A stretch of DNA of 64,000 bases from Aureispira sp. CCB-E (GTDB lineage: Bacteria; Bacteroidota; Bacteroidia; Chitinophagales; Saprospiraceae). The notes beneath the pieces are model-generated. The model was not told the origin of the DNA and made no database searches. It worked only from the letters and a program-made list of their open reading frames with translations. Location: NCBI RefSeq assembly GCF_031326345.1, contig NZ_CP133671.1, forward strand, positions 5,905,001 through 5,969,000, written 5' to 3'. Made by a program: the position numbers and the translations under genes. Shown here piece after piece: positions 25,970-48,447 of this stretch (position 1 is its first letter; each line of letters opens with the position of its first letter).

Positions 25970-25977
25970 TATTTTTG
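25970..25977 (+). promoter_or_regulatory. -7 promoter box of the GlcD-like gene
   Basis: TATTTTTG matches TAnnTTTG, 31 bases before the ATG at 26008. No TTTG is seen at -33. Confidence 0.35.
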
Positions 25978-26007
25978 AGTTCTTCATTCTAGACAAAATT
26001 CTTTGAT

Positions 26008-29899: not shown

Positions 29900-31234
29900 T
29901 TACGGTCGTAAAATCACTACTTGCTCTATAGTCGAGCTTGCCGCTATGCTAATACTCGTACTAGCTGGGTTCGGGTAGATTAAAACGTCTTCTTTGCTTT
30001 CTATCCTTGCTATACTCGTCAAGGTATCGCAGGCGGAGCCTGATAATTTGGGCGTTCTGTAGTGGGGCATATTGGGTAGGAAGTGCCCTTGCACAAAGAA
30101 TACATCTAAGCCTCTTTGAACGACATTACAACCTATCCCTCCCACATCTGGATCATTGATGATATGCATATAAGGCGTATTGTCTATATGACTGTAGATT
30201 TTGCCATCGGGTGCAGTTTGTATATATCCAAATTGTGTAGGGTTCACTCCATACATATAGTTATCAAAGATAGCTACCGTATCTTTTGAAGCAGCTATAT
30301 TGGATGCCCATAAATCAAATTGATATAGATAAATCCAAGAAGATACATATAAGTAACGATTATTGGGAGATACTGCTACACCTGATGAAATGAAGCTAAA
30401 TGCAATATTATCAATAGAATCTATGACAGGGATATGCAAATAGTTGGAAAAATAACCTGAACAACGATCAAAATCGTAAATATCTAAATCATGCTTATAA
30501 TCATATCGAATGTATTGATTTCCTTGATGACTAAAAGTAGCTTGACCTGCACCTTCACTACCTAGATTTTTAGTTACTCCTAAATATTGTCTATGATGAT
30601 AAGTAATGGTATTTCCTGCAATCAAAAATATATGATAGCCATTACTCAAACTCATGGGTTGGATTAGCCACCAATCTCTATCATTACCATGTTTAACTAC
30701 TTCCAATTGCCCACTACAAATCGAATCATTTTCTAGTAAAATTTGATTCTTTGTTTCCACCTTCCCTAATCCTCCATTGGCATTCATATCAACTAGGGTA
30801 TAATACAGCTTTTCTGCAAATCCTGCTAAAGCACTTGTATTACTAGTAGCTTGATGAAAAATATAGTATTTATTACTTTGCATAGGATGAGGTATAGCAA
30901 TCATACCTTCATTAATAGGGTAACCAATATTTCTAAAGTTATCCGCTACCTACCCAGGATTGAGACTATCCCCATTTTGCATTAATTGATGTTGGGCATT
31001 GTGTATTTTTATTCCATTAGAATAGAAAATTAAATTGCCTAGACTATCAGATACAGAAATAGCTGCTCTATCTATTTCCATAGAACGAGAAACGCTGTCT
31101 ATCAACAGAGGATTATCAAAAATAATGTGAGTTGACTTTGTTCCACCGCCACCAACTAGCCAATTCTTATCATATTGTTGGACATAAGAATTAAAGCAAA
31201 CTATACAACCAAAGAGTATAAAAACGTACTTCAT
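29900..31234 (-). pseudogene. A4: decayed copy of the 495-residue T9SS protein
   Basis: The start (MKYVFILFGCIVCFNSYVQQ) and body match A1-A3. After SLNPG there is a TAG (30950-30952) where A2 and A3 have a CAA/CAG-type glutamine codon (SLNPGQVADNF, SLNPGQIADNF); the frame then continues unchanged as VADNFRNIGYPINEG to the end. A second lesion removes about 48 codons of the sorting domain: SSTIEQVV is joined directly to ILRP, where other copies have YDALGREVL through TEKVVVLRP. The deletion joins two similar short sequences (TAAAaccAC and TAAATCAC), so it looks like a short-homology event. With an early stop and no sorting domain the gene is not expected to make a T9SS cargo. Confidence 0.85.
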
Positions 31235-31249
31235 TATTATAAAATTAAA

Positions 31250-31279
31250 AAGCCCAAAAAGAATATCCTCTTTGGGCTT
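31250..31279 (-). terminator. Hairpin between B''' and A4
   Basis: Minus strand AAGCCCAAAGAG pairs with CTTTTTGGGCTT with a small internal mismatch, followed by TTTTTAATTTT. It ends 15 bases before the A4 start codon. The same position holds a hairpin in all four copies. Confidence 0.65.
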
Positions 31280-31291
31280 GATTTATTAAAA

Positions 31292-31798
31292 TTATTTTAC
31301 CACTACAAAAGACTTTGTAATCTTGTAAGCACCACTTTGTAAACGAATGTTATAAATACCATCCAATAATAAACTTAGATCTATCTCTATTGTATTGATA
31401 TCTTCGTTAATAAAAATAGTTTTTACTCTCTGTCCTAAAGCATTATAGACTTCTATTTGTATCTCATCTTCTAGAACTAGATTACTTTCTAAGGTAATGG
31501 TATTGTTTGTTGGATTGGGATATAAGATTAAATCTCATACTTCTGTTTCGCTCTCAGCAGTATTATTATCCTTCTCAGTATTTCTATTTTCTTCTCCATT
31601 CGATCTTCCATTATTGCTAATACAATTAAAATTCAATAAATCGGTATCCTCAACCATAGAGAGCATCCCTCTAGCTTGATGTACAGCTGCACCTCCTTCT
31701 TGCGAACAATGTGCAGCTATTTGTCGTAAAGAAACCAATTCACTACTATTAAATTCTAAGATTCCTTTTGCCAGTGTGTTTAGATATATGTCATTCAC
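31292..31798 (-). pseudogene. B''': 5'-truncated tail of B with a nonsense codon
   Basis: About 168 codons homologous to the last ~165 residues of B (VNDIYLNTLAKGILEF ... HQARGMLSMVED ... T9SS domain ... SFVVVK). It has no ATG start: the first possible codon is the GTG that encodes Val inside B. At 31535-31537 a TGA replaces the TGG (Trp) of EVWDLILYPNP, cutting off the T9SS sorting domain; reading on in the same frame restores the whole domain to the TAA at 31292-31294. It lies five codons downstream of the A3 stop and in the same frame. Confidence 0.85.
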
Positions 31799-31810
31799 TT
31801 CTTGTTCCTT

Positions 31811-33298
31811 TTACGGTCGTAAAACCACCACCTTCTCGGTCAATAATCGACCATTCTCCAAACCGACCGAAACAACATACGTTCCATTGCTCAACTCCTT
31901 TATATCCAAGACTACCTCCGATTCTTTCCCTACCAAAGAACACAATACCTCCCGACCCAAAGCATCATAAATCACTACTTGCTCTATAGTCGAGCTTGCC
32001 GCTATGCTAATACTCGTACTTGCTGGGTTTGGGTAGATTAAAACGTCTTCTTTGCTTTCTATCGTTGCTAGACTCGTCAAGGTATCACAGGCAGAGCCTG
32101 ATAATATTGGGGTTCTGTAGTGGGGCATATTGGGCAGGAAATGCCCATGTACAAAAAACACATCTAAACCTCGCTGTACGACATTACAGCTTATACCTCT
32201 AACATCTGGATTATCAATAATGTGCATATAAGGTGTATTATTTACATGGCTATAAATCTTCCCATCAGGAGCCGATTGTATATAACCAAATAACACAGGA
32301 TGTACCCCATACATATAGTTATCAAAGATAGCTACCGTATCTTTTGAAGCAGCTATATTCGATGCCCATAAATCAAATTGATATAGATAAATCCAAGATG
32401 ATACATATAAGTAACGATCATTGGGAGAAGCAGCTACACCCGTTGAAACAGCACTAAATGCTAAATTATCTACAGAATCAACAATAGGTATGTGCAAATA
32501 GTTAGAAAAATACCCCGAGCATCTATCAAAATCATAAATATCTAAATCACTCCTATGATCATACCTAAAATATTGATTCCCTTGGTGATTAAAAGTAGCT
32601 TGTCCTGCCATTTCATTTCCCCAAAGTTTAACGTTTCCTAAATATTGTTTGTGATGGTAAGAAATCGTATTTCCTGCAATTAAAAAAACATGATAACCAT
32701 TGCTAAAACCCATGGGTTGTATCAACCACCAATCTCGACCATTTCCATGCTTTACCACTTCCAATTGTCCTGGACAGATTGAGTCATTTTCTAATAAAAC
32801 TTGATTCTTTGTTTCGACTCTTCCTAAACCTCCATTGGCATTCATATCCACTAGAGTATAGTATAGTTTATCTGCAAAGCCTGCTAGAGCACTTGCATTT
32901 GTGCTAGCTTGATGAAAAGCGTAATATTTGTTGGTCTGAACAGGATGTGGAATTGCAATCATTCCTTCATTAATAGGATAACCAGACTGTCTAAAATTAT
33001 CTGCTATTTGCCCTGGATTTAAACTATCTCCATTTTGCATCAACTGATATTGTGCATTGTGTATTTTTATTCCATTAGAGTAAAAAATTAAATTCCCTAA
33101 GCTATCAGATACAGAAATAGCTGCTCTGTCTATTTCCATAGAGCGAAAAATACTGTCTACAACAAGGTTATTGTTAAATGTAATTTGGGTTGATTTTGTA
33201 GTATACTGTCCTGCTCCAACTAGCCAATTATTATCATGTTGCTGTGCAAAAGAATTAAAATAAACTATAGAACCGAAAAGTATAAAGATGTATCTCAT
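31811..33298 (-). CDS. A3: T9SS-secreted propeller-like protein
   Basis: A 495-residue exported protein, intact. Signal peptide 1-18 (ending NSFAQQ). Residues ~20-415 contain repeating beta segments: NNWLVGAGQ, ISVSDSLGNLIFYSNG, YYAFHQAS, LYYTLVDMNANGG, IYDFDRCSGYFSNY, YLYVSSWIYLYQFD, GYIQSAPDGKIYSH and FLPNMPHYR. These match the N-terminal beta-propeller region of many Bacteroidota gliding-associated proteins. Residues ~422-495 are a T9SS type A sorting domain (VLIYPNPASTSISIAAS ... LSNGTYVVSVG ... KVVVLRP). The DNA of its sorting domain is identical to that of A1 over about 80 bases (31837-31918 against 37561-37642), pointing to conversion. Function unknown; likely surface-exposed. Confidence 0.9.
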   Translation of the reverse strand: MRYIFILFGSIVYFNSFAQQHDNNWLVGAGQYTTKSTQITFNNNLVVDSIFRSMEIDRAAISVSDSLGNLIFYSNGIKIHNAQYQLMQNGDSLNPGQIADNFRQSGYPINEGMIAIPHPVQTNKYYAFHQASTNASALAGFADKLYYTLVDMNANGGLGRVETKNQVLLENDSICPGQLEVVKHGNGRDWWLIQPMGFSNGYHVFLIAGNTISYHHKQYLGNVKLWGNEMAGQATFNHQGNQYFRYDHRSDLDIYDFDRCSGYFSNYLHIPIVDSVDNLAFSAVSTGVAASPNDRYLYVSSWIYLYQFDLWASNIAASKDTVAIFDNYMYGVHPVLFGYIQSAPDGKIYSHVNNTPYMHIIDNPDVRGISCNVVQRGLDVFFVHGHFLPNMPHYRTPILSGSACDTLTSLATIESKEDVLIYPNPASTSISIAASSTIEQVVIYDALGREVLCSLVGKESEVVLDIKELSNGTYVVSVGLENGRLLTEKVVVLRP

Positions 33299-33313
33299 TG
33301 TTATTAAATTAAA

Positions 33314-33343
33314 AAGCCCAAAGAGATAATTCTCTTTGGGCTT
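33314..33343 (-). terminator. Hairpin between B'' and A3
   Basis: AAGCCCAAAGAGA (33314-33326) pairs perfectly with TCTCTTTGGGCTT (33331-33343) around a four-base loop, with a TTTTTAATTT tail on the minus strand. It lies between the B'' stop (33356) and the A3 start (33298), leaving only 15 bases before the ATG. Confidence 0.75.
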
Positions 33344-33355
33344 GATTCGTTAAGA

Positions 33356-33850
33356 TTATTTTATCAATACAAAAGATTTTGTAATCTTGTAAGCGCCACT
33401 TTGTAGGCGAATATTATAAATACCATCCAATAGTGAACTAACATTTAGGTCTATTGTGTTAGTATTTTCATTGATAGAAATAGCTTTCACTTTCTGACCT
33501 AAAGCATTGTAAACTTCAATTTGTATCTCATCTTCTAGAACTAAGTTACTTTCTAAAGTTATTATACTATTTGTGGGATTTGGATATAAGATTATATCCC
33601 ATCTTTTTGCATTAGCAGTTTCCTCTGATTTATTTTCTTCTTCTGTTATAGAAGAACGACTATTATTAGCAACACAATCAAAATTCAATAGCTTCACATC
33701 TTCTACCATAGACAACATGCCTCTTGCTTGATGTACGGCTGCACCTCCTTCTTGTGGGCAGTGTGCTGCTATTTGTCTTAAAGAAATCAGTTCACTGTTA
33801 CTGAATTCTAAGATTCCTTTTGCCAATGTGTTTAAGTAAATATCATTCAC
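33356..33850 (-). pseudogene. B'': 5'-truncated tail of B (frame intact)
   Basis: A 164-codon copy of the end of B: VNDIYLNTLAKGILEFSNSE, AHCPQEGGAAVHQARGMLSM, then a complete T9SS type A domain (IILYPNPTNSIITLESNLVL... KSFVLIK). The frame is open, but the only available start is the internal GTG at 33850 and there is no signal peptide, so it could not be exported by itself. It is in frame with the A2 stop codon (TAA at 33865-33863) four codons upstream. It could be translated by coupling, by stop-codon read-through as an A2 extension, or not at all. I call it a truncated gene copy rather than a working gene. Confidence 0.75.
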
Positions 33851-33862
33851 TTCTTGTTCCTT

Positions 33863-35350
33863 TTACGGTCGTAAAACCACCACCTTCTCGGTTAATAATT
33901 GACCATTCTCCAAACCAACCGAAACAACATACGTTCCATTGCTCAACCCCTTTATATCCAAGACTACCTCCGATTCTTTTCCTACCAAAGAACACAATAC
34001 CTCCCGACCCAAAGCATCATAAACCACTACTTGCTCTATAGTGGAGCTTGCCGCTATGCTAATACTCGTACTTGCTGGGTTTGGGTAGATTAAAACGTCT
34101 TCTTTGCTTTCTATCGTTGCTACACTCGTCAAGGTGTCACAGGCGGAGCCTGATAAAGCAGGCATACGATAATGTGGCATGTTGGGCAGGAAATGCCCAT
34201 GTACAAAAAACACATCTAAACCTCGCTGTACGACATTACAGCTTATACCTCCAACATCTGGATTATCAATAATGTGCATATAAGGTGTATTATTTACATG
34301 GCTATAAATCTTCCCATCAGGAGCCGATTGTATATAACCAAATAACACAGGGTGTACCCCATACATATAGTTATCAAAAATAGCAACAGTATCCTTTGAT
34401 GCAGCTATATTAGATACCCATAAATCAAATTGATACATGTAAATCCAAGAAGAAACATATAAATATCTGTCGTTTGAAGAGACTGCTACACCTGTTGAAA
34501 TAGCACTAAACAATAAATTATCAACCGAATCTATAATAGGTATATGCAAATAATTGGACAAATAACCTGAACACCTGTCAAAATCGTAAATGTCTAAATC
34601 GTTCTTATCATCATACCTGAAATATTGGTCTCCTTGATGATTAAAAGTCGCTTGCCCTGCCATTTCATTTCCCCAAAGCTTAACATTTCCTAAATATTGT
34701 TTGTGATGATAAGAAATAGTATTTTCTGCAATTAAGAAAATATGATAGCCATTATTGAAACCCATGGGTTGTATCAACCACCAATCTCTACCGTTACCAT
34801 GCTTTACTACTTCCAATTGACCTGGACAGATTGAGTCATTTTCCAGCAAAATTTGATTCTTTGTTTCCACTTTTCCTAAACCTCCATTGGCATTCATATC
34901 CACTAGGGTGTAATACAACTTTTCTGCAAAACCTGCTAGAGCACTTGTGTTACTAGTAGCTTGATGAAAAATATAGTATTTGTTGGCTTGAACAGGATGA
35001 GGGATAGCTATTATTCCTTCATTAATAGGATAGCCAAATTGTCTAAAATTATCTGCAACTTGACCAGGATTGAGACTATCTCCATTTTGCATCAATTGAT
35101 ATTGTGCATTGTGTATTTTTATTCCATTAGAATAGAAAATTAAATTGCCTAGACTATCAGATACAGAAATAGCTGCTCTATCTATTTCCATAGAACGAGA
35201 AACGCTGTCTATCAACAGAGGATTATCAAAAATAATTTGTGTTGACTTTGTTGCAAACTGTCCTGATCCAACTAGCCAATTGTTATCATATAGCTGCGCA
35301 GAGCCATTGAAAGAATAAATAAAACTAAAGAGTATAAAAAAGTATCTCAT
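33863..35350 (-). CDS. A2: T9SS-secreted propeller-like protein
   Basis: A 495-residue intact paralog of A3 and A1: signal peptide 1-18 (ending FNGSAQ), propeller-like region (~20-415) with DRAAISVSDSLGNLIFYSNG and LYYTLVDMNANGGLGKVETK, and a T9SS type A domain (~422-495) ending KVVVLRP. Its first ~150 codons share 131 bases of identical DNA with A4 (35106-35236 against 30996-31126), while its third quarter is closest to A3 (the HVNNTPYMHIIDNPDV and CNVVQRGLDVFFVHGH region). This mosaic pattern argues for exchange among copies. A hairpin sits just before its ATG, leaving no room for a normal promoter, so it is probably transcribed from upstream. Confidence 0.9.
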   Translation of the reverse strand: MRYFFILFSFIYSFNGSAQLYDNNWLVGSGQFATKSTQIIFDNPLLIDSVSRSMEIDRAAISVSDSLGNLIFYSNGIKIHNAQYQLMQNGDSLNPGQVADNFRQFGYPINEGIIAIPHPVQANKYYIFHQATSNTSALAGFAEKLYYTLVDMNANGGLGKVETKNQILLENDSICPGQLEVVKHGNGRDWWLIQPMGFNNGYHIFLIAENTISYHHKQYLGNVKLWGNEMAGQATFNHQGDQYFRYDDKNDLDIYDFDRCSGYLSNYLHIPIIDSVDNLLFSAISTGVAVSSNDRYLYVSSWIYMYQFDLWVSNIAASKDTVAIFDNYMYGVHPVLFGYIQSAPDGKIYSHVNNTPYMHIIDNPDVGGISCNVVQRGLDVFFVHGHFLPNMPHYRMPALSGSACDTLTSVATIESKEDVLIYPNPASTSISIAASSTIEQVVVYDALGREVLCSLVGKESEVVLDIKGLSNGTYVVSVGLENGQLLTEKVVVLRP

Positions 35351-35369
35351 TATTATAAAAGTTAAAAAA

Positions 35370-35394
35370 CCTAAAGAAAAATAATCTCTTTAGG
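35370..35394 (-). terminator. Hairpin between B' and A2
   Basis: CCTAAAGA (35370-35377) pairs with TCTTTAGG (35387-35394), followed on the minus strand by TTTTTTAACTTTT. The stem sequence differs from the A3 and A4 hairpins but keeps the pairing and position. Confidence 0.7.
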
Positions 35395-35412
35395 CTCAAT
35401 ATATTATTTTTA

Positions 35413-37527
35413 TTATTTAACTACTACAAAGGATTTCGTTACCTTATAAATACCACTCTGCAAACGTATATTATAAATCCCATCTAAGAATGAATTAACG
35501 TTAATATCTATGGTATTAATATCTTCATTGATGGACATTTCTTTTACTTTCTGCCCTAAAGCATTGTAGATTTCTATTTGAATTTCATCTTTTAGAACTA
35601 GATTACTTTCTAGAGTGATTACATTGCTTGTTGGGTTTGGGTATAAGATTAAATCCCATACTTCTGCATTAGCAGTTTCATCTGATGTATCCTCTATAGA
35701 AGAACGTCCATTATTAGGAGTACAATCAAAATTCAATAAGTTAACATCTTCTACCATAGAGAGCATTCCTCTTGCTTGATGAACGGCTGCACCACCTTCT
35801 TGAGGACAATGAGCTGCTATTTGTCGCAAAGCCACAAGCTCACTAGCATTAAATTCTAAGATGCCTTTTGCTAGTGTATTTAGGTAAAAATCATTCACTT
35901 CTTTTTCTAAGACTTCATGTAGAACTGTTGTGTTAAAAGAGTTGTTATTTGCACAAATAGGTGTTAAGATTACTTGTCGTTGTGTCTCTATATTATCTAA
36001 CAAAATTTGTTGTTGCTGCATAGCTCTACTTAAACTATTAGCTACAGAATTTCTAGCTATAGCTGTCAAAGTATTAAAATTATCAGCTAAAATAGAATCT
36101 AAATGATGCAAAGAATCTAAATAAATCAAACAAGTATTTTTACAACTATCCAATAACACAGAATTCAATGTACTCACCATAAATGCTTGTTCACATTGTG
36201 TGGCAATATTATCAAAATGCCCAATACAGGTATTCTGATGACTAGCTACAAAATTTTGAATGTGAGGATTTTGACTGTTATTTACTAAACTAGGATTATT
36301 CACTAACTTTCTAAACAAAGCTCTTTTTGCATTGTACTTGGTTACTAAAGGAATATTTCCTGAGTTATTTCTTGCTAAAGCATTATCTAGTCCTGTAACC
36401 CTAGGGTTATTTGTGCTGTTATTTCTACTATTTGTTGTATTAGACTGAGCAGAAGAACGAGAGTTTCCACAGAAGTTAAAAGGTTCTACACAATCAAAGT
36501 TTGGTGAATTAGGTTGGTCTATAAACCATCCACCCAATCCATTATAGTTATGAGGTCTAAAATCAGGATTAGGGTTAGAATTAATGTCAAACCTTGAAAG
36601 TTGTTGTATTGGTACACTTCCTTGGTGAAAGGCATCCAAATTAGCAGCATGCGTCCAAGTATTTCCAGTGTACTGTTGTACATCAATAATAGCGCCACCA
36701 TCCAACAACAATCCAGTATTATGTCGATCAAAGCCATTGCCTCTAAAAGTAACCGTATTATTAAAGCCTTCAAAAAAGACCCCAACATTCGTTAGAGTGA
36801 CATTATTACATTGATAAGTACTAACGCCACCTAGCGCACCACCAGCAGCCACAATACCATAAGTATTGGTTGCGCCTAAGGTTTGCCCATCCCCACTAAT
36901 CGTATTACATTCAATCTGTAATCGACTATTCATGCTTGATATTCCTGCTCGTTCTGGGCTATTGCCCTCCATCGTAATCCGATTACTTTGAATAAGCCCC
37001 GAAAATTTAGGATCATTGCTGTTTTCATGGTTAAGAACAGCAATACCATTTTCTGCTTGATTTGCCTTTAAGTTATTGTTCGAAATCACTAAAGACGAAG
37101 CATCTCCCGTTGGGTTATCATTTATCAAGATGCAAGCCCCCTCCCCTGGTACTGTATTCATCTCAATCGTATTGTTATCAATCCAAATATCACTCGGAAT
37201 ACGAGGATCAAAGGCAGCAACTCCCAAACGTTCCATATCGGAGAACGTATTGTTTTGAACGTGTACAATTGTATTAAACAGTCGCATAGAACGAACCCCC
37301 ATGTCTTCTATATTGGTCATTTGATTGCGATAAATACGCATTCCAGAACTGATCCCTGAAATGCCAATAAAACAATTTTCAAAAGAGCAATCCTCTATCT
37401 TTGTTTCCTTAAAATCGATTAATAAAGGCGATTGCACATGCACCCCACAGCCTTGATAAGCTAAATTAGTTGGATAAAGTGCCGTTTGGGTCATTGTATT
37501 AAAATTACAAGAATTTGTTGAGAAATT
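35413..37527 (-). pseudogene. B': 5'-truncated copy of B (last ~704 codons)
   Basis: This region is homologous to B from about residue 2408 to the end: the beta-helix part starting NFSTNSCNFNTMTQTALYPT, then the Ser/Asn-rich linker, the QTCIG/HFDN cysteine region, and a complete T9SS domain ending KSFVVVK. The first ~280 codons are almost identical to B at both DNA and protein level; later parts diverge (for example TLTNVGVFFEG against TNTYTGVFFEG). There is no start codon or signal peptide at the homology boundary; the frame extends into the A1 gene only with a GTG in a different frame. It follows the A1 stop by five bases. It could be a silent donor copy or a non-functional remnant. Confidence 0.8.
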
Positions 37528-37532
37528 CTTTT

Positions 37533-39020
37533 TTACTCTCGAAGCACCACCACCTTCTCGGTCAATAATCGACCATTCTCCAAACCGACCGAAACAACAT
37601 ACGTTCCATTGCTCAACTCCTTTATATCCAAGACTACCTCCAATTCTTTCCCTACCAAAGAACACAACACCTCCCGACCCAAAGCATCATAAACCACTAC
37701 TTGCTCTATAGTGGAGCTTGCCGCTATGCTAATACTCGTACTTGCTGGGTTTGGGTAGATTAAAACGTCTTCTTTGTTTTCTATTGTTGCTATACTCGTC
37801 AAGGTATCGCAGGCGGAGCCTGATAATTTGGGTGTTCTGTAGTGAGGCATATTGGGTAGGAAGTGCCCTTGCTCAAAAAATACATCTAAGCCTCGTTGTA
37901 CTACATTACAACCTATCCCTCCTATATTAGGATTATTGATGACATGCATATAAGATACATTGTCACTATGACTATAAATCTTCCCATCTGGTGCAGATTG
38001 TATGTAACCAAAAAAGGTAGGTTTCGTTCCAGACAAAACATTATCGTAAACTGCTACGGTATCTTTTGAGGCAGCTATGTTGGATGCCCATAAGTCAAAT
38101 TGATACAGATATATCCAAGAAGAGACATATAAATATCGGTCATTTGGAGATATTGCTGCACCTGTTGAAACGTTGCTAAATGCCGCATTATCGATAGAAT
38201 CAATAATAGGAATGTGCAAATAATTCGATAGATAACCTGAACACCTATCAAAATCATAAATGTCTAAATCATTTTTATAGTCATATCGAATGTATTTATC
38301 TCCTTGATGACTAAAAGTAGCTTGTCCTAAAACTTCATTCCCTAGGGTTTTAGTTGTGCCTAAGTACTGTTTATGATGGTAAGAAATAGTATTTCCTGCA
38401 ATCAAAAATACATGATACCCATTCGAGCCACTCATCGGCTGTATCAACCACCAATCTCGACCATTACCGTGTTTGACCACCTCTAATTGCCCCCCACAAA
38501 TCGAATCGTTTTCTAACATAATTTGATTTTTCACCTCAACCTTTCCTAAGCCCCCATTCGCATTCATATCAACTAAAGTGTAATACAGTTTATCTGTAAA
38601 ACCTGCTAGAGCACTTGCATTCGAAATTGCTTGATGAAAAGCATAGTATTTATTTGTGTGGATAGGATGAGGTATTGATATCATTCCTTCATTGATTGTG
38701 TATCCCGCCGCCCTATTACTATTTGCTATCTGCCCTAGGTTTAAACTGTCTCCATTTTGCATTAGTTGATGCTGGGCATTGTGTATTTTAATTCCATTCG
38801 AATAAAAAATTAGATTCCCTAAACTATCTGACATAGAAATAGCCGTTCTATTCATAGGTAGGTTTCTATTAACACTATCAACTAAGATTATATTATTAAA
38901 TGTCATTTTAGTGCTCTTAGTACCCCCAAAACCTCCTCCGACTAACCAATTATTATCATATTGTTGTGAAAAGCAATTTAAAGAATAGACAAAACTGAAG
39001 AGTATAAAAAAGTATTTCAT
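37533..39020 (-). CDS. A1: T9SS-secreted propeller-like protein, first copy after B
   Basis: A 495-residue intact protein with the start chosen at 39020 (MKYFFILFSFVYSLNCFSQQ signal peptide); the frame extends further upstream only through GTG codons inside the B tail. The body has the same beta-segment series as A2 and A3, with variations such as RNLPMNRTAISMSDSLGN and AVYDNVLSGTKPTFFGYIQS. The T9SS type A domain is at ~422-495 and ends KVVVLRE rather than LRP. It starts 56 bases after the B stop, so B and A1 are probably one transcript; a B-A pair seems to be the ancestral unit. By context A might be a partner or co-displayed protein of the B surface protease (inference). Confidence 0.9.
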   Translation of the reverse strand: MKYFFILFSFVYSLNCFSQQYDNNWLVGGGFGGTKSTKMTFNNIILVDSVNRNLPMNRTAISMSDSLGNLIFYSNGIKIHNAQHQLMQNGDSLNLGQIANSNRAAGYTINEGMISIPHPIHTNKYYAFHQAISNASALAGFTDKLYYTLVDMNANGGLGKVEVKNQIMLENDSICGGQLEVVKHGNGRDWWLIQPMSGSNGYHVFLIAGNTISYHHKQYLGTTKTLGNEVLGQATFSHQGDKYIRYDYKNDLDIYDFDRCSGYLSNYLHIPIIDSIDNAAFSNVSTGAAISPNDRYLYVSSWIYLYQFDLWASNIAASKDTVAVYDNVLSGTKPTFFGYIQSAPDGKIYSHSDNVSYMHVINNPNIGGIGCNVVQRGLDVFFEQGHFLPNMPHYRTPKLSGSACDTLTSIATIENKEDVLIYPNPASTSISIAASSTIEQVVVYDALGREVLCSLVGKELEVVLDIKELSNGTYVVSVGLENGRLLTEKVVVLRE

Positions 39021-39034
39021 TGTTATAATATTAG

Positions 39035-39066
39035 AAAGTCTATAGAGATTAATCGCTATAGACTTT
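39035..39066 (-). terminator. Hairpin between B and A1 (no T run)
   Basis: AAAGTCTATAG (39035-39045) pairs with CTATAGACTTT (39056-39066), with GATTAATC continuing the stem inside. Unlike the other three copies, no T run follows on the minus strand (CTAATATTATAACAATG), so transcription can probably continue into A1. I list it as a terminator-like hairpin; it may be a 5'-leader element. Confidence 0.5.
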
Positions 39067-39075
39067 GATTTATTA

Positions 39076-42000
39076 TTATTTAACCACCACAAAGGATTTT
39101 GTAATGATATTTTCTTTATTTTTCAAACGTAAAGTATAAATGCCATCTAAGAATAAAGATATATCTATTTCTATACTTTGAGTCGCTTCGTTTACAGAAA
39201 TTGCCTTTACTTTCTGTCCTAATACATTATAGATTTCTATTCTTGTACTTTTTTCTAATACTAGATTACTTTCTAGGGTAATAAGGCTACTTGTTGGATT
39301 AGGATATAAGATTAAATTCCATACTTCCATTTCATTCTCAACAATACTATTATCTTTGTTAGTATTGCTATTTTCTTCTCCATTGGATCTTCCACCGCTA
39401 CTAACACAATCAAAATTCAGTAAATTCACATCCTCTACCATAGATAGCATTCCTCTTGCTTGATGAACGGCTGCACCACCTTCTTGAGGACAATGATCTG
39501 CTATTTGTCGCAAAGCCACAAGCTCACTAGCATTAAATTCTAAGATTCCTTTTGCTAGTGTATTTAAGTAAATATCATTCACTTCTTTCTCTAAGACTTC
39601 ATGCAAAACTGTCGTATTAAAAGAGTTATTATTGGTACAAATAGGGGTTAATACTATTTGTTGTTGTGTCTCTATATTATCTAGGAAAACTTGTTGTTGC
39701 TGCATGACTCTACCTAAATTATTGGCTACCCCATTTCTATTAGTCGCTATTGTGCTATTAAAATTAATACCCAACAGAGAATCTAAATGATGTAAAGAAT
39801 CTAAATAAGTTAAGCAAATATTCTTACAGCTGTCCAACAAAATGGAATCCAATGCACTCATCATAAATGTTTGTTTACATTGTGTTGCCACATTATCAAA
39901 ATGACCAATACAGGTATTCTGATGACTAGCTACAAAATTTTGAATCTGTGGATTTTGGCTATTAATTGCTAAACTAGGATTATTCACTAACTTTCTAAAT
40001 AAAGCTCTTTTAGCATTATACTTGGTCACTAAAGGAATATTTCCTAAACCATTACTTGCTAAAGCATTATCTAGCCCTGTAATTCGAGGAGTAATACTAC
40101 TGTTATTTCTATTATTCGTTGTATTAAATCGGGCAGAAGAACGAGAATTCCCACAGTAATTAAAGGGTTCCACACAATCAAAGTTTGGAAAATTAGAGTT
40201 ATCAGTAAACCATCCAGTTAATCCATTATAGTTATGAGGTCTAAAATCAAGACTAGGGGTTGAATTAATGAAAAATTGCGATTGGTTTTGGATAAGTGCT
40301 ATACCTTGGTGTACAGCATCCAAATTAGTGCTGTGTGTCCAAGTATTTCCATAATACCCTTGATTATCAAACTGGTTTCCAATAATAGAACCACCATCCA
40401 TTAGCAATCCAATATCATGTCGATCAAAGCCATTGCCTCTAAAAGTAACCGTATTATTAAAGCCTTCAAAAAAGACTCCAGTATAAGTGTTTGTAACGGT
40501 ATTACATTGATAAGTACTAACGCCACCTAGCGCACCACCAGCAGCCACAATACCATAAGTATTGGTTGCGCCTAAGGTTTGCCCATCCCCACTAATCGTA
40601 TTACATTCAATCTGTAATCGGCTATTCATGCTTGATATTCCTGCTCGTTCTGGGCTATTGCCCTCCATCGTAATCCGATTACCTTGAATAAGCCCCGAAA
40701 ATTTAGGATCATTGCTGTTTTCATGGTTAAGAACAGCAATACCGTTTTCTGCTTGATTTGCCTTTAAGTTATTGTTCGAAATCACTAAAGACGAAGCATC
40801 TCCCGTTGGGTTATCATTTATCAAGATGCAAGCCCCCTCCCCTGGTACTGTATTCATCTCAATCGTATTGTTATCAATCCAAATATCACTCGGAATACGA
40901 GGATCAAAGGCAGCAACTCCCAAACGTTCCATATCGGAGAACGTATTGTTTTGAACGTGTACAATTGTATTAAACAGTCGCATAGAACGAACCCCCATGT
41001 CTTCTATATTGGTCATTTGATTGCGATAAATACGCATTCCAGAGCTGATCCCTGAAATGCCAATAAAACAATTTTCAAAAGAGCAATCCTCTATCTTAGT
41101 TTCCTTAAAATCGATTAATAAAGGCGATTGCACATGCACCCCACAGCCTTGATAAGCTAAATTAGTTGGATAAAGTGCCGTTTGGGTCATTGTATTAAAA
41201 TTACAAGAATTTGTTGAGAAATTAGAATTAAACAAGACAATTCCCGCCACCATTCTTTGGAAAGTATTGGATAAGGCAGCAGGCGATAGGTTGAGGTTCA
41301 AGGCAGGAATATCCCAGCCATAAATCCCAGCCAAGCCAACCCCATTTGGGGTAATCGTCGATACAGTTCCACTAATATCTAGTGTTGGTGTTCCTGGTAC
41401 GCCTACGTAAGTGGGTAAAATACTTGGCGCAGAAAATACATTGTCTCTAAATTTTCCAAGAATTAAGTTGTTGTAATTCGCATTGGGAGCGATGTAAATA
41501 CCAATGAAATTATTTAAAAAGTTCGATTCTGTAATGTCTTGCAAAATTGCCCCATCTTCTGCTTGAATGGCATATTGAGCATCTCGGAATGTCGTGGCAT
41601 ACACCGCAATTGTTCCGTTGTTTTGGACTAAAATACGTTGCCACAAACAGTTGGCACAAGCCGCTCGAACAGTAGCATTGTTGAGGTTCAAAGTTGCTCC
41701 TGTAGAGACAATAATTTGAGCTCCAGGACTCATGTTTAATACAGAACTATTGGTAAAGCTGTACGTCAACCCTACATCCAATATCCATACACCAGCAACA
41801 TTAATAACTTGTGGCGTACTTTGAGCCAGAGCATTACTTAGCAATTGGCCTGTATTGATCAAATCACTAAAATAAACAGTATCAGGCAAAGGTGTACAAC
41901 TTGTGGCAAAGGTATCTTTTATCCAGATGCTTGCTAGAGCACTTACAATAGAACTAGGATTGCCTAATTCAAAGGCATTGGCTTGATTGACCATAGTAGT

Positions 42001-45000
42001 ATTATTTCCACAACTGTCTGTTATTAAAACGCGCACTTTGAAAGGAAGGGTGTCGCTTGTTCCTGCTGCTAAATTTAGGGTATCTATCAGAACATTCGTG
42101 ACATTACCATAGGTATAACTTCCCAAATAAGTTGGCAACAAACCATCAGGCAAGGTATCTGTGACCACTATGTCTCTCGCACTTTGGCAATGATTGGTCA
42201 CCACAATACTATAACAAATGGTATCATAAGGCACAATGGTATCTTTATCCACCAACTTCAACACAGAAAGGGGGGCTGCCAAAGGTTCTATATTGGTACA
42301 AGCAACAAAAGTACAATTGTTTGCGTCTGTTATGGTTACACAATAATTGCCAGCTATCAAACCATTTACATCTTCTGTAGTGGCTCCATTAGACCACAAA
42401 TAGCTGTAAGGCAAGGTTCCTCCTGTGGGGGTATTGTCAATCGCTCCACTATTAGGGGCAATACAATCTACATTGGTGCTGTCTAAGGTTGCACTTAGTA
42501 TGGTTGGCTCAGTTACATTTGCTGTAGTGCTTACAGTACAACCATTGTCATCTGTTAGGGTTAAAGTATAGCCTCCTGCTATTAAACCTGTAGCATTTGC
42601 CCCTGTTTGGGCATTTGACCATAAGTAAGTGTATGGAGCTGTTATACCTGTAATACTGGTAGTAATCTGTCCATCAGCAGCACCATTGCAAGAAACATTG
42701 GTGGTATTGGTGGTGACAATTGGTAGGGGTGGTACTGTTAGGGTAATTGAATCTATATAAGTGCAATTGTTGACATCTGTAATGGTTACTATATAGGTGC
42801 CTGTGCTTAGGTTGGTAATAACATTAGTGCTGGCACTATTTGACCATAGATAGGTGTAGGGTGCTGTTCCTCCTGTTGTATTGGCAGTTATTTCCCCATC
42901 ACTCTGTCCTACACAACTGATTGGATTGGTATTGGTTAAGGTGGTAGTTAATACATTGGGCTCACTCACACTTATGGTGGTGCTTACTGTACAACTATTG
43001 GCATCACTGACTGTTACTGTATAGTTACCTGTGGCTAAATTAGTAGCATTGTTTCCTGTTTGAGTGTTTGACCAGAGATAGGTGTAAGGACTTGTTCCAC
43101 CATTGGTAGATAGATGTATGCTAGCATCACTTAACCCTGCACAGCTTACATGAATAACTGTATCAACAATTACTACTACTGCTGTTGGCTCTCCTAAAGT
43201 AACACTTGCTATACTTGTATCTGAACAAGCTCCAATTACAGTTACTTGATAATTCCCTGCTCCTAAACCTGTAGTGGTGGCCAAGGTATCTCCATTAGAC
43301 CACAAATAAGTATATGGACTCAAACCATTACTGGCAATCACAGTTGCTGCGCCATCTGCTGCTCCAAAACAGGATATGTCTGCTCCATTGTAATTAGAAC
43401 TGATTGTTGCTGTACTGCTAATGGGTGATAATGGTGTATAATTAAAGGTATCACTTGTAAAGTCACATTGTGGGGTAGTTACTGTGGCATAATAAGAACC
43501 ACTTGTTGGGGGACTGTAGTTATGGGTGGTTTCTCCTGTAATTGCTAGTCCTGTGGTGGCATCATACCATTGGATGGTGTCGCTTAGGGTATTAGTAGGG
43601 AGGGTTAGAGTTCCTGTACAAGTATCTAGTGTGATTGTTCCATCTGCTGGGGAAACATAGATATCTACAGTATAAAAAGAAGTTCCATAAAATTGACAAT
43701 TTTTGCGTCTAGCAGTATGACTTACTTCATAATATTGATAGGTAGTATCATAACTAAACGTACCTGTAATAGACAGGCTATCTCCGAATGGAATAATGTT
43801 AAGTGTAGTATAAATAGTAGATGTTCCTCCTGTAGTAATCACTTGACTAACACCATTAATTACCCATCTATGCTCAATGGTAGAATCAACACCACTAGCA
43901 TTAAAAGTAAGCACTGCTTCTTCACAGACATCTATTGTATCAGCTCCATTTATAGAGGCATCTGGCAAAAAATGTAGGATGAGTCTATTTTGGCAGCTGT
44001 TTGTATCACCATAAGTATAATATAGTGTCCCTAAACCTTCCGCATATCTTGCATTCAAAATGTTATTTATGGTATCAAAGTATGGTGGTGTCAATGTAAT
44101 AAATTGATGTGGCACAGGATTTGACCAAATACCTGTTGTATCATTAATTCCTAAATTACTTAAGACAAGATTTAAATCTAATTGATGGTGATTAGGTGGT
44201 GGGTTTGAATTGGTAGAATAAGCTGGGTCACTAGAAAGACAATTAATTCGGTGCTGTGTTACAATCCCTCCTGAAGCAAGAGCACGACTAACAGTATATT
44301 TTACTTTATGAACAGTACAGGCACCTGCTTCTTCAGCAATAAGTGTATATTCAGCTGGAAGAATTGTTGCAAAGGTAATTGGTTCCAGTATATTAGGATT
44401 ACTTAAACCAGTAGCTGGACTCCATTGATAGGTAAAGGTACTTGAGTTGCTTATGTTTGGATTCCTGTTTACTAGAACGACTGAATCTAAGGCACATTTG
44501 TTAAGAAACCCTAAGCTATTAATTGTATCTGGTGGAATAGTCACTAAATAATTAGCTTCTGCAACCTCACAACCTGTTGCATTATCTGTAACAATCAAAG
44601 TATATAATTGAGTTGTGGGAGTTGTTGTTGTTGGAACAAGAACTGTATCACTACTTAAATAAACAGAAGGACTCCACTGGTAACTAAAATCACCTATTTC
44701 TGAAAAGTTCCCTGTAAGCATTACTGTATCTGCAGAACACTTATTAAATTGAAACGTATTTAAGGTATAACCTGGTGTTAAACAACCTAATTGATAACAA
44801 GTTGCCACTAAAGAATCACAATTAATAGTGTCAATGCCAACAGAAGCAGTTAATTGAGTAGAATCTGCATGATTAATGTATCCAAAAGAGAAATTAGAAA
44901 GACTTGAGGAGTAGGAATCTCCAGCCATACAAGTGGTAATTAATTCATCATCTATTTTATTAAAAACTAAGCCTATATCATTAAAATTATTGTTAACTAT

Positions 45001-48000
45001 TAGATTGGGCGCATATTCTCCAATAAACATATAACCTCCATTCGCCGAAGGAACAACAGATTGTGGTGTTTTTATATAGCTAGAAACATTATAAACACCA
45101 CCCCAATCTCCTTGTGTTTTGGTGTCAGAGTAAGTACGAATAGTTATGTTGGAAGGATTAAAATTAGTGGCAGTCACTGCTGGAATTGGAATTTTTGCTG
45201 CTGCTAATTCATTGGTACTTAAATTTCTTCCACCAAGTATGAGATTTGTCCCATCTATAATCAAATCTACAGGATATAAATCCTGTATTAAGACTTCATT
45301 ACCAAAATCTCCCGTATTGGGGTCTATTTCAATAATTAGAGAGCCGTGTAAAAGACTATTAAATGACACAAAAAATAGTCGCCCATTATCGTAAGCTACA
45401 GCAACAGGCTTACTTGAACCTATTCCACTAGGAAACTCCACATTTTTTCGCCATTCTTCTGTCGTAACTCCTCCACTTATAGTTAAACAACTAATAAAAG
45501 TTCCTGAACCTGTGTTAGTTCCTTGCGTTCGATTGGAATGCCCACTGATAACGATAGCTGCTTCTAGTCCATTTCCAAAATCACCAACAATCTCAGTCAC
45601 ATTTTCTGCGATATCATAATCGTCTGTAGTAGTGAATTTTCCAGATTCAAAGTAATGTTCCCACTGAATTCCTGTGGTAGGATTGATACCAAGTATAAAC
45701 CCTCTTTTATCGGTATTAATGGTGTCTCCTTCTCCAACAAAACCAACAATCGCTAAATCATTGTTGAAGCTATTCGATAGTTGAATCAGTTCCAAACCAA
45801 CCGCATTGGGTTGCAAAACGCCATTCTTATTCATTTGGTAGGTTTCTTGAAACAATAGATTCCCAGCACGATCTACAATGACCAAAAGAAGCTCACTTGT
45901 ATTGCCTCGTTTTACACGTCCCACCAAAGCAATTCGATCGGTTCCGAGATAATTTACATTTGAAACAACGTCAAAAAGTTCTACATCTGCATTAGGAACT
46001 CGAATAGCTCTACGCCATAATGGGCTTCCAAAAACATTGGTTCGCATCACTACTCCTTCACTATTTTGGTGGAGTATATATCCTGTTCCTGTTACAATAT
46101 GCCCTATTGTTGTATCGTTTGGAATAGCACCAAGATTATCAATCGTGGCACCATTAATTTGCCAATCGGTTGAATCAAAACTAAGTGTTACCCTATTTCT
46201 TTGATCATTGGGCGAACAATCTAATACCTCTATGGACATACTATCAACATCTGTGGTAATCACAGTATTTCCTCCGACCAAAGTGGTATCACGTATTGTT
46301 AGGCTAACATCCCATATTCCTGGCTCACAAATAGAAAGAGTTGTTTCTGGAAAATCAGGACTTGATCCAAATAAAGGCGATGCACTAATACAAAATCCAT
46401 TCATACTAGGTGCTGGATTTCCATTATTTTTATTCGGGTCCCAACTTATTTGCCATTCCCAGTGATCTAAAAGTACTTCAACACCTTTTAGTTCAATAGA
46501 CCCTCCTGCACAAACAGACTCTGAAGATGCTACAAAAGCAGCACTAATATTGGTCTTGTCTACACAGCCTCCCAATTCTTGTACTCCTGTAGCAATCAGA
46601 TTATATTCTGAATGCACATAAGGCCTCCCATTATCTAATATGTAGTGCATTCGATCTATTTGCCCTCCTGTAAAAACACTCAAGCAAAGTTCATTATGAT
46701 AATCCAAGTGGTTCTGTCCTCTAAAATAAGGGGGATTGGGTGGGCAACTTGTGCCATAAGAATAGGGAGTTGAACAGTTCCCTATACTACTATCCGATGT
46801 CGGATTAAATTGTTCGTAAGTATCACAAATTCCATCTGATTCAAAAACATGTTCCAAGCCTAACCAATGCCCTACTTCATGTATCAAAGATTTTCCCATT
46901 GGTGCCACTGCCCCTCCTGTAAATACATCGTAATCAATTCCAATTCCATCAAAAATTCCATAATTGGGTCCTACACTAGAAACACCTAGAACCGAAATAC
47001 CTGGATAAATGATGGTGTCAACAATGTATATATTGAGATACTCTTTTGCATCAAAAGGTAGTTTTCTCATTACTTCATTTCTGTATGTTGGATTGGTGAA
47101 ATCAAATTCATCAAGTGTATCTAAGGTATAGGTTATTCCAGGAACACTTGATCCATACTGAAACCACGAAGCAGAAATCCCTGTTGTAGTAAGTAAGTTC
47201 TGTGCCAAACAAAAGCTAATCCCTGTAGAATCTTTTGAAAAATATTTATTAAGCGTATCTAATTGAGCCTGTATGCGGCTCGCTGGGAAAGCATTTAAAG
47301 TTGCTTGATTATCTGCTATTACATGAAAGATAACAGGGATATGATACTCTGGGCTGTTGGGATTACTATTGTTATTAGCATGCAAAGAAGCTCGATAGAG
47401 CAAACTTTGAGTTCTAAAATAATTAGGGTCATTCGATTGCCTCCAAGTAGTATACTCATCTGCACCACAAGGATATTTAGGGCGTTTTACATCTAACAAA
47501 ACAGTGCGAGCACTCAATCCATTTGCAGAAGTTGTCGCCAATTGAATCACATTCATTCCTAAAGCAAAAGCATATTGAAGCGAATCAACAGATACAGTAG
47601 TATCTCCATTGATGTTCCAATAAAGAGTTGTAGAGTTGGTACTAGTCTTGTTTAACGCCACTAAATCCGCCTCTTTGGGATTGTTGTCACTCAAGCTAAA
47701 ATTAGCCAAGCCATTGGGGTAACAAGTACTGGAAACACAACTTGTTGTCGTCCATGTGGGGTCATTGCCATCCACATAAAAACTATTTCCCAAACGAGCA
47801 TAATGCGCCACACTGCTCAAGTTATTGGCAAACTGTCCTGTATTTTCTTCAAAATTCCAATAAGCAACTAAACTACTATTCGTCATTGCTGTAGAATCCA
47901 AACAACTCGTTTCGTAGGACTCAATGTTGATTCCACTACGAGCAGCATTCCAAATCCGAACTTCATCCAATGCTCCTTTGAAGTAATTTGTATCGCCAAT

Positions 48001-48447
48001 GGTTTTTCCCATGAATATAGCACAGTTGGTACAGGTTGCATTCACAGTTCCCGCTATAGACTGGGTTCCTAACAAAATATGATTGACATAAAATAACAAA
48101 TTGCCATTGTCTCGAACAATAGCTAAATGCGTACATCCTGAAAAAGTATGATTCATTGAATAGAGGATACTTTCAATTTGTAGGTGGATGCCTCCACTCG
48201 TAATCGACCAACAAATTCCTTGGGTTGAGTTGGTGTTTTGTTGACTCAAGATTGTCAAAGTATCTGATAAACTGAAATCTAAATTAGAGACCATTGCTTC
48301 CATAGCAAAATTTCCAGTCCCTAAATCTAATTGATGGTAATAATTGCTTTCTGTATAATCATCAACACCATCAAAATTAAGTGCGGTTTGAGCATAGGTA
48401 GATAAATGACATAAGCATGCCATTAAGAGGGTAAGAATAACTTTCAT
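39076..48447 (-). CDS. B: giant T9SS surface metalloprotease/adhesin
   Basis: A 3,123-residue exported protein; the ATG at 48447 gives the signal peptide MKVILTLLMACLCHLSTYAQ. Domains in order (approximate residues): LamG-like (20-205, ALNFDGVDDY ... ALDEVRIWNAAR); M43 pappalysin-like peptidase with HEVGHWLGLEH (522-532) and a downstream GGQIDRMHYIL Met-turn; PKD-like (655-760); propeller-like (760-1260); Ig/PKD-like (1270-1600); five SprB repeats (1680-2050) with SPYTYLWSN-type signatures; DUF11-like (2058-2180); right-handed beta-helix (2200-2780); T9SS type A domain (~3046-3123, LILYPNPTSS ... KSFVVVK). The intact zinc motif predicts an active protease, secreted by T9SS. SprB repeats are known from gliding adhesins. 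Its tail is duplicated three times downstream. Confidence 0.93.
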   Translation of the reverse strand: MKVILTLLMACLCHLSTYAQTALNFDGVDDYTESNYYHQLDLGTGNFAMEAMVSNLDFSLSDTLTILSQQNTNSTQGICWSITSGGIHLQIESILYSMNHTFSGCTHLAIVRDNGNLLFYVNHILLGTQSIAGTVNATCTNCAIFMGKTIGDTNYFKGALDEVRIWNAARSGINIESYETSCLDSTAMTNSSLVAYWNFEENTGQFANNLSSVAHYARLGNSFYVDGNDPTWTTTSCVSSTCYPNGLANFSLSDNNPKEADLVALNKTSTNSTTLYWNINGDTTVSVDSLQYAFALGMNVIQLATTSANGLSARTVLLDVKRPKYPCGADEYTTWRQSNDPNYFRTQSLLYRASLHANNNSNPNSPEYHIPVIFHVIADNQATLNAFPASRIQAQLDTLNKYFSKDSTGISFCLAQNLLTTTGISASWFQYGSSVPGITYTLDTLDEFDFTNPTYRNEVMRKLPFDAKEYLNIYIVDTIIYPGISVLGVSSVGPNYGIFDGIGIDYDVFTGGAVAPMGKSLIHEVGHWLGLEHVFESDGICDTYEQFNPTSDSSIGNCSTPYSYGTSCPPNPPYFRGQNHLDYHNELCLSVFTGGQIDRMHYILDNGRPYVHSEYNLIATGVQELGGCVDKTNISAAFVASSESVCAGGSIELKGVEVLLDHWEWQISWDPNKNNGNPAPSMNGFCISASPLFGSSPDFPETTLSICEPGIWDVSLTIRDTTLVGGNTVITTDVDSMSIEVLDCSPNDQRNRVTLSFDSTDWQINGATIDNLGAIPNDTTIGHIVTGTGYILHQNSEGVVMRTNVFGSPLWRRAIRVPNADVELFDVVSNVNYLGTDRIALVGRVKRGNTSELLLVIVDRAGNLLFQETYQMNKNGVLQPNAVGLELIQLSNSFNNDLAIVGFVGEGDTINTDKRGFILGINPTTGIQWEHYFESGKFTTTDDYDIAENVTEIVGDFGNGLEAAIVISGHSNRTQGTNTGSGTFISCLTISGGVTTEEWRKNVEFPSGIGSSKPVAVAYDNGRLFFVSFNSLLHGSLIIEIDPNTGDFGNEVLIQDLYPVDLIIDGTNLILGGRNLSTNELAAAKIPIPAVTATNFNPSNITIRTYSDTKTQGDWGGVYNVSSYIKTPQSVVPSANGGYMFIGEYAPNLIVNNNFNDIGLVFNKIDDELITTCMAGDSYSSSLSNFSFGYINHADSTQLTASVGIDTINCDSLVATCYQLGCLTPGYTLNTFQFNKCSADTVMLTGNFSEIGDFSYQWSPSVYLSSDTVLVPTTTTPTTQLYTLIVTDNATGCEVAEANYLVTIPPDTINSLGFLNKCALDSVVLVNRNPNISNSSTFTYQWSPATGLSNPNILEPITFATILPAEYTLIAEEAGACTVHKVKYTVSRALASGGIVTQHRINCLSSDPAYSTNSNPPPNHHQLDLNLVLSNLGINDTTGIWSNPVPHQFITLTPPYFDTINNILNARYAEGLGTLYYTYGDTNSCQNRLILHFLPDASINGADTIDVCEEAVLTFNASGVDSTIEHRWVINGVSQVITTGGTSTIYTTLNIIPFGDSLSITGTFSYDTTYQYYEVSHTARRKNCQFYGTSFYTVDIYVSPADGTITLDTCTGTLTLPTNTLSDTIQWYDATTGLAITGETTHNYSPPTSGSYYATVTTPQCDFTSDTFNYTPLSPISSTATISSNYNGADISCFGAADGAATVIASNGLSPYTYLWSNGDTLATTTGLGAGNYQVTVIGACSDTSIASVTLGEPTAVVVIVDTVIHVSCAGLSDASIHLSTNGGTSPYTYLWSNTQTGNNATNLATGNYTVTVSDANSCTVSTTISVSEPNVLTTTLTNTNPISCVGQSDGEITANTTGGTAPYTYLWSNSASTNVITNLSTGTYIVTITDVNNCTYIDSITLTVPPLPIVTTNTTNVSCNGAADGQITTSITGITAPYTYLWSNAQTGANATGLIAGGYTLTLTDDNGCTVSTTANVTEPTILSATLDSTNVDCIAPNSGAIDNTPTGGTLPYSYLWSNGATTEDVNGLIAGNYCVTITDANNCTFVACTNIEPLAAPLSVLKLVDKDTIVPYDTICYSIVVTNHCQSARDIVVTDTLPDGLLPTYLGSYTYGNVTNVLIDTLNLAAGTSDTLPFKVRVLITDSCGNNTTMVNQANAFELGNPSSIVSALASIWIKDTFATSCTPLPDTVYFSDLINTGQLLSNALAQSTPQVINVAGVWILDVGLTYSFTNSSVLNMSPGAQIIVSTGATLNLNNATVRAACANCLWQRILVQNNGTIAVYATTFRDAQYAIQAEDGAILQDITESNFLNNFIGIYIAPNANYNNLILGKFRDNVFSAPSILPTYVGVPGTPTLDISGTVSTITPNGVGLAGIYGWDIPALNLNLSPAALSNTFQRMVAGIVLFNSNFSTNSCNFNTMTQTALYPTNLAYQGCGVHVQSPLLIDFKETKIEDCSFENCFIGISGISSGMRIYRNQMTNIEDMGVRSMRLFNTIVHVQNNTFSDMERLGVAAFDPRIPSDIWIDNNTIEMNTVPGEGACILINDNPTGDASSLVISNNNLKANQAENGIAVLNHENSNDPKFSGLIQGNRITMEGNSPERAGISSMNSRLQIECNTISGDGQTLGATNTYGIVAAGGALGGVSTYQCNTVTNTYTGVFFEGFNNTVTFRGNGFDRHDIGLLMDGGSIIGNQFDNQGYYGNTWTHSTNLDAVHQGIALIQNQSQFFINSTPSLDFRPHNYNGLTGWFTDNSNFPNFDCVEPFNYCGNSRSSARFNTTNNRNNSSITPRITGLDNALASNGLGNIPLVTKYNAKRALFRKLVNNPSLAINSQNPQIQNFVASHQNTCIGHFDNVATQCKQTFMMSALDSILLDSCKNICLTYLDSLHHLDSLLGINFNSTIATNRNGVANNLGRVMQQQQVFLDNIETQQQIVLTPICTNNNSFNTTVLHEVLEKEVNDIYLNTLAKGILEFNASELVALRQIADHCPQEGGAAVHQARGMLSMVEDVNLLNFDCVSSGGRSNGEENSNTNKDNSIVENEMEVWNLILYPNPTSSLITLESNLVLEKSTRIEIYNVLGQKVKAISVNEATQSIEIDISLFLDGIYTLRLKNKENIITKSFVVVK

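Follow-up and report, generated by a model that had tools for sequence, protein, structure and literature searches.

Does a locus in which one complete gene for a giant surface protein is followed by 5'-truncated copies of its own tail vary an expressed protein from silent cassettes, or is it a tandem array shaped by ordinary recombination? The question is raised by a 64,000-nucleotide stretch of Aureispira sp. CCB-E (contig NZ_CP133671.1, positions 5,905,001 to 5,969,000; hereafter the window) from a host genome of 7.39 Mb in two contigs. In this window B, which encodes a giant cargo protein of the type IX secretion system (T9SS), and truncated tails of B alternate with copies of a second secreted-protein gene, A; from the sequence alone, the original prediction proposed that the B tail and A might be varied from the truncated copies. 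We found that the array consists of repeated units of a B tail and an A gene, that its copies are mosaics of exchanged sequence, that the arrangement recurs in a sister species and at other loci, that it is nearly lost in a second isolate of the same species, and that the tails are mostly open and conserved. The explanation that we favor, at somewhat better than even probability, is a recombination-driven tandem array of two-gene T9SS units, and not a demonstrated case of programmed variation. The gene order on the minus strand is B, A1, B', A2, B'', A3, B''', A4, with the following features (ORF, open reading frame).

39076..48447, minus strand: B, full-length gene for a giant T9SS protein of 3,123 amino acids (ORF from ATG, Pfam)
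40414..41223, minus strand: anchor within B (residues 2409-2678), at variance with B' at 18 sites in 810 bp
39076..40413, minus strand: divergent B tail (residues 2679-3123), sorting domain at its end (identity profile against B')
39035..39066, minus strand: hairpin in the B/A1 spacer (z -7.3; missing from the scan's terminator-like list)
37533..39020, minus strand: A1, complete gene for a secreted protein that carries a T9SS sorting domain (ORF, Pfam)
35413..37527, minus strand: B', 5'-truncated B copy of ~704 open codons (homology to B)
35367..35397, minus strand: hairpin and T-run in the B'/A2 spacer (z -3.7)
33863..35350, minus strand: A2, complete A gene (ORF, Pfam)
33356..33859, minus strand: B'', truncated B tail of ~167 codons, open (homology to B)
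33314..33343, minus strand: hairpin and T-run in the B''/A3 spacer (z -6.6)
31811..33298, minus strand: A3, complete A gene (ORF, Pfam)
31292..31807, minus strand: B''', truncated B tail of ~168 codons with one in-frame TGA (homology to B)
31250..31279, minus strand: hairpin and T-run in the B'''/A4 spacer (z -4.1)
29900..31234, minus strand: A4, decayed A gene with an in-frame TAG and a deletion that removes most of the sorting domain; no B tail after it

ORFs and homology confirmed the predicted layout of one complete B followed on the same strand by four A copies and three partial B copies, and of the sizes predicted for the latter (about 704, 164, and 168 codons) the first and last held, B'' measuring ~167. 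Repeat copies of 134-300 nt within the array are 60-95% identical and the pieces of 1.9-4.0 kb recovered by self-BLAST are 78-83% identical, both beyond chance. Searched against the whole genome, A matched the four array copies plus 12 places limited to its last ~110 residues, and B' matched this locus only, besides matches at B' residues 630 onward.

Pfam identified Laminin_G_3, Peptidase_M43, five SprB stretches, and Por_Secre_tail in B, which agrees with the predicted domains and adds the laminin one. The scan covered B, A1-A3, B', and B'' and left out B'''; in A1-A3, B', and B'' the sorting domain, and nothing else, scored above cut-off. B and A1-A3 pair this domain with signal-peptide-like starts, judged by eye, as is characteristic of T9SS cargo; B' and B'' have the sorting domain and, as had been predicted, no visible signal peptide. 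The T9SS sorting domain is normally cleaved off. It spans residues 88-161 of 164 in B'', about half of the product, and beyond it the short tail copies contribute only ~90 codons. The "propeller" of A and the "beta-helix" of the B tail in the original prediction found no backing, since neither gave a Pfam hit and the folds modeled for A and B' from window-only alignments were rejected at mean predicted local distance difference test (pLDDT) scores of 34 and 30, respectively.

The junctions within the array are tight. Homology of B' to B begins at 37527 (equivalent to 41223 in B), 5 nt past the A1 stop codon, and an in-frame ATG lies 38 nt past that stop; B'' and B''' each have an in-frame GTG 12 nt past the preceding A stop, with AAGGA ahead of it. 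The claim that the partial copies lack start codons was thus too strong, and these codons may be used. In array S2 of the sister species (genome G003), the ATG of all four truncated tails (4/4 stubs) overlaps the A stop as ATGA in the stub frame, and because this start is common to the four, truncation most simply predates stub divergence. The spacers between tail and A contain a strong hairpin in 11/11 cases across the window array and the two G003 arrays, S1 and S2 (z -2.95 to -7.29); the stem sequences differ, the hairpins end 14-18 nt ahead of the ATG of A, and most are then followed by a T-run. A scan for terminator-like elements listed three of the four window hairpins. A would either be read through the spacer hairpin or use it in some other way. 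No promoter could be substantiated for B as originally proposed: sigma-70-like sites in the region numbered 73 versus 81 in shuffled sequence, and a promoter pattern of the Bacteroidota type had 4 occurrences in the window where 3.28 were expected, which is chance level.

Exchange among copies was assessed by a run-length permutation test on identical tracts, which was then rerun on synonymous codons only. Tracts of 131 bp (A2-A4, P = 0.0002), 99 bp (A2-A3, P = 0.0002), and 53 bp (A3-A4, P = 0.0036) were identified among the window A copies, with P values by simulation, and two of the three remained on synonymous codons (A2-A3, P = 0.0002; A2-A4, P = 0.013). The A copies of S1 gave tracts of 53 bp (C1-C3, P < 0.001) and 25 bp (C1-C2, P = 0.027), and those of S2 tracts of 102 bp (D1-D2) and 53 bp (D3-D4; P <= 0.0005), one tract being left in each array in the synonymous rerun. 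Among the four tails of the window, significance was confined to two tracts between B and B' (P = 0.0024 and 0.045), the best B-B''' and B-B'' tracts being nonsignificant (P = 0.28 and 0.49, respectively). The divergence pattern therefore carries the marks of exchange that the original prediction anticipated, in the significant tracts among A copies and between B and B'. With A4 left out, identity among copies of the sorting-domain part of A is 95-97% in the window array, 79-87% in S1, and 88-96% in S2, versus 48-60% between arrays, and the mature part is 75-86%, 76-80%, and 62-81% identical within the respective arrays; by these identities, the sorting-domain part evolves in concert within arrays.

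The B/B' comparison has a sharp right-hand boundary. Of the 18 differences in residues 2409-2678, a patch at 2650-2657 holds 12, while 5 precede that patch and 1 is at 2678; past this last residue identity drops to 65-93% with an island of 97% near 2966-3005. The long stub of S2 behaves similarly toward its own B, at 88-100% identity from ~2545 to ~2678 and 46-75% thereafter, synonymous divergence (dS) being 0.18 before the boundary and 1.41 after it. Because B orthologues have no identity step near residue 2678, the step reflects exchange more than constraint. A fast-evolving stretch starts just past the boundary, and tracts may end there for lack of homology. Exchange mostly homogenizes the copies, and since the main B/B' block is nearly identical, copying it yields no variants.

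The original prediction looked to differences between isolates, and the one comparison made, between two isolates of one species, revealed a drastic one. The second isolate, Aureispira sp. CCB-QB1 (locus L124), is represented by a draft assembly. One of its flanks is 99.3% identical to the window over 9,952 bp and the other, which starts inside A4, is 98.1% identical over 5,475 bp. They are separated by a short stretch that has no match, 23 bp of B reproduced exactly (residue 2371), a fragment of A that best matches A1 (82%), and one A. This remaining A is A1-like at L124 10231-10410 (85-93%, versus 70-75% to A4) and A4-like from L124 10471 on (96-100%), where it shares the sorting-domain deletion of A4. 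No B orthologue was present among the matches listed for CCB-QB1, only SprB-repeat matches and distant paralogues, and B' had no match at E 1e-15. We read this locus as one in which the array was probably lost, leaving a hybrid A by recombination between copies. Mosaic copies and a change in copy number, as in a tandem paralogue array subject to homologous recombination, are both seen across these two isolates. Past the collinear flank, at L124:15611-16471, window 25860-26197 is present in CCB-QB1 a second time (96%), and after this duplicate comes a diverged version of the Fib_succ_major gene region, matched in two pieces at 69-85% (compare window 25222-26197).

The same plan recurs in both G003 arrays, in the order B-A-stub-A-stub-A-remnant for S1 and B-A-stub-A-long stub (~600 codons)-A-stub-A-remnant for S2. 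Positional orthology was not evident, 2 of the 31 window ORFs queried being matched within ~24-30 kb on either side of these arrays, both at low identity and in repeat or sorting domains. Relatives of B' at E 1e-15 were present in three of nine genomes of the genus, the window's own included. A survey of named genomes returned 188 stretches matching a search pattern, of which 160 were confirmed and 80 loci kept; these held 115 A genes, 14 of them too near a contig end and 101 usable. A B-tail-like ORF lay within 400 bp upstream of 42 of the 101 usable A genes (28 with 600 codons or more, 6 interrupted by a contig end, and 8 shorter), 52 had an upstream ORF lacking B-tail similarity, and 7 had no upstream ORF. 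The order A, short tail ORF, A was found at five loci (L119, L123, L129, L134, and L185), the tail similarity at L134 being detected only when the sorting domain was included. These counts and the five loci establish a B tail and A as a recurring pair, and tail-only units as recurring with them. At L123 (4061-4720) and L129 (11917-12966), both from Saprospiraceae metagenome-assembled genomes, the tail-only mini-genes between two A genes have a signal-peptide-like beginning by a crude hydrophobicity rule. Separately, the two G003 B genes (L084:4815-6014 and L086:8168-9367), ~4.8 Mb apart on the contig, are 89% identical in codons 1-400 and 58% in the 400 that follow, which suggests exchange between the arrays.

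Tails compared within arrays gave ratios of nonsynonymous to synonymous divergence (dN/dS) of 0.07-0.20, with bootstrap upper limits up to 0.33 and dS of 0.59-1.14, once 2.12; ratios were ~0.11-0.34 for B versus tails, where defined, and 0.17-0.25 for B versus B. Seven of the eight tails ahead of an A have an open frame throughout the aligned portion, the exception being B''', which precedes the decayed A4; for S2-S4, a genome search with a longer match placed one stop upstream of that portion. The remnants after the last A are broken in both G003 arrays. In neutral simulations at 0.05 substitutions per site, a stop-free run of 704 codons, as in B', had P ~0.005. In a tree of sorting domains the window and S1 tails form one clade (support 0.986) and the S2 tails a second (support 1.000), each separate from B, and upstream of the sorting domain the window B groups with B' and B''', so that B and the tails shared or exchanged sequence in that region. 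Recent truncation of a surviving full-length gene with a tail-type sorting domain was considered and rejected, as no such gene was found in the host genome or G003.

Each unit of the array thus consists of a B tail, which comprises a pre-domain region and the sorting domain, then a hairpin, and then an A gene. The first unit holds the giant B in full, and later units a B cut from its 5' end to ~140-700 codons and sitting directly past the stop codon of the preceding A. On the reading that we favor, ordinary homologous recombination, through unequal crossing over and gene conversion, would grow, shrink, and homogenize the arrays, selection would keep several A variants together with their tails, and translation of the tails would presumably be coupled to that of the preceding A. 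A number of observations weigh against this account. Conversion could equally have spread the ATGA junction, so that a shared start is not proof of truncation before divergence, and the low tail dN/dS may for the same reason predate truncation. Between arrays tail dN/dS reaches 0.39, and tail dS is near saturation for the simple counting method used. B''' has an in-frame stop, and the openness of B'' is weak evidence (P = 0.22 for 167 stop-free codons at 0.05 substitutions per site). Because the truncated Aureispira tails lack a signal peptide, a sorting-domain product would not be exportable in the ordinary way. No tail was detected upstream of 59 of the 101 usable A genes; in another genome of the genus (G006) a broken B tail precedes an A that is itself open up to the contig end; and within arrays the correlation of distances between tails with those between A genes is weak (r = 0.41, P = 0.12).

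A rival account is a decaying tandem duplication, in which B-A pairs were duplicated, the extra B copies are wearing away from their 5' ends, and the tails are what is left of them between A genes under selection. The stop in B''', the decay of A4, the broken tails past the last A in both G003 arrays, the broken tail in G006, and the near-loss of the array in CCB-QB1 all suit it; we nevertheless consider it somewhat unlikely, and decay alone, which had been offered as the simple alternative, misfits the within-array tail dN/dS of 0.07-0.20, the seven of eight open tails ahead of an A, and a layout of A, tail, A that recurs in two species and at five further loci. Variation from silent cassettes as in pilE/pilS or vlsE, where truncated copies would donate segments to an expressed gene by conversion, is highly improbable. 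It was suggested by a full-length gene beside 5'-truncated copies and by mosaic identity among them, and the parts of the original prediction that stood are that copies have exchanged sequence and that the locus differs between isolates; the grouping of B with B' and B''' upstream of the sorting domain speaks partly for it as well. In antigenic variation the variable regions are enriched in amino acid change; no such enrichment was found here, dN exceeding dS in none of the 60-codon windows with a value, whether in the B tail or in A, some windows being saturated. Exchange mostly homogenizes, the only significant tracts among the four tails are those between B and B', A1-A3 are complete genes, the region 28001-50000 contains no canonical G-quadruplex, and the short copies would offer little beyond sorting domains that fall in clades apart from that of B.

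The near-identity of the anchor also fits a switch of tail and partner, in which B', with its anchor, divergent tail, and partner A2, might serve as a reserve cassette whose tail and A are loaded onto B by recombination in the anchor, as has been proposed for the CDI/Rhs orphan modules described below. The drop from 18 differences in 810 bp to 65-93% identity, the same pattern with the same right boundary near residue 2678 in S2, an A of its own after each tail, the grouping of B with B' and B''' upstream of the sorting domain, and mostly open tails speak for it. We regard such switching as quite unlikely, however, because no switched isolate is known, the tail sorting domains lie in clades apart from that of B, the boundary falls just ahead of the fast-evolving stretch, where tracts could end for lack of homology, and copies reaching the anchor number none in S1 and one each in the window and S2. 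The recombination-driven array of two-gene units remains our preferred explanation. The locus is a testable case of the turnover of SprB-repeat giants and their partners, in which mini-copies look constrained though devoid of export signals and a second isolate combines near-loss with a hybrid allele. If tails were switched or used alone, T9SS giants would have a new means of being varied or equipped.

Among known systems the layout is closest to the orphan modules of contact-dependent growth inhibition (CDI) and Rhs loci. One paper on these systems (PMC3150448) describes orphan fragments that generally lack translation start signals and almost always have a partner gene next to them, some matching the main gene only upstream of a boundary. 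As in orphan cdiA-CT/cdiI and rhs arrays in that account, a full-length secreted giant here precedes C-terminal copies that are truncated and have partner genes of their own downstream. Conservation before a boundary with a divergent tail after it was found for B/B' and for the S2 B and its long stub (S2_B/S2_S3) only, the short tails beginning downstream of the anchor boundary. Unlike the CDI and Rhs modules so described (PMC3150448), the tails here share homology with one another and carry a T9SS sorting domain at their ends, and their partner, A, is secreted. Pfam found no toxin or immunity signature in B', B'', or A1-A3, A itself being a secreted sorting-domain protein; because tail and partner lack that signature, as far as domain content can tell, we did not class the array as CDI/Rhs. 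It is unlikely, though conceivable, that the array is a T9SS counterpart of these orphan modules, in which long truncated copies would act as reserve tail-plus-partner cassettes and recombination in the anchor would swap the last ~445 residues of the giant together with its partner A in at least two species.

Strings of esaG immunity genes in Staphylococcus aureus (PMC9484751) likewise consist of tandem paralogues that recombine via conserved blocks with loss and expansion; the array differs in that A takes turns with truncated copies of a second gene and encodes a secreted product. Gonococcal pilE/pilS and Borrelia vlsE (PMC3899283, PMC11499132) share with the array a complete gene near partial homologous copies and mosaic identity; they differ in that the present array has no diversifying signal, complete A copies, and truncated copies that are constrained and carry a sorting domain of separate lineage. 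Titles and abstract openings of the open-licence PubMed Central papers listed yielded none on this locus or on T9SS silent cassettes, which does not imply absence from print.

SprB-repeat giants are numerous in the host genome, with 150 repeat matches scored across many long frames. Two B-like giants with open frames of ~2,000 codons lie at contig C1 3899261-3911236 and are 32-34% identical to the N-terminal part of B. Four distant giant SprB genes (C1 952000-964500, 1802500-1822000, 2226000-2240500, and 7096500-7114000; L226-L231) share blocks of 3.7-4.6 kb near their 3' ends that are 97-99% identical; among the matches listed there was no other same-strand match of more than 400 bp, so their 5' parts seem to differ, which suggests a genome-wide homogenization of giant-gene tails. 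Near the array and on the same strand, window 52238-55219 encodes a TPR-CHAT protein (Pfam CHAT, E 5.4e-56).

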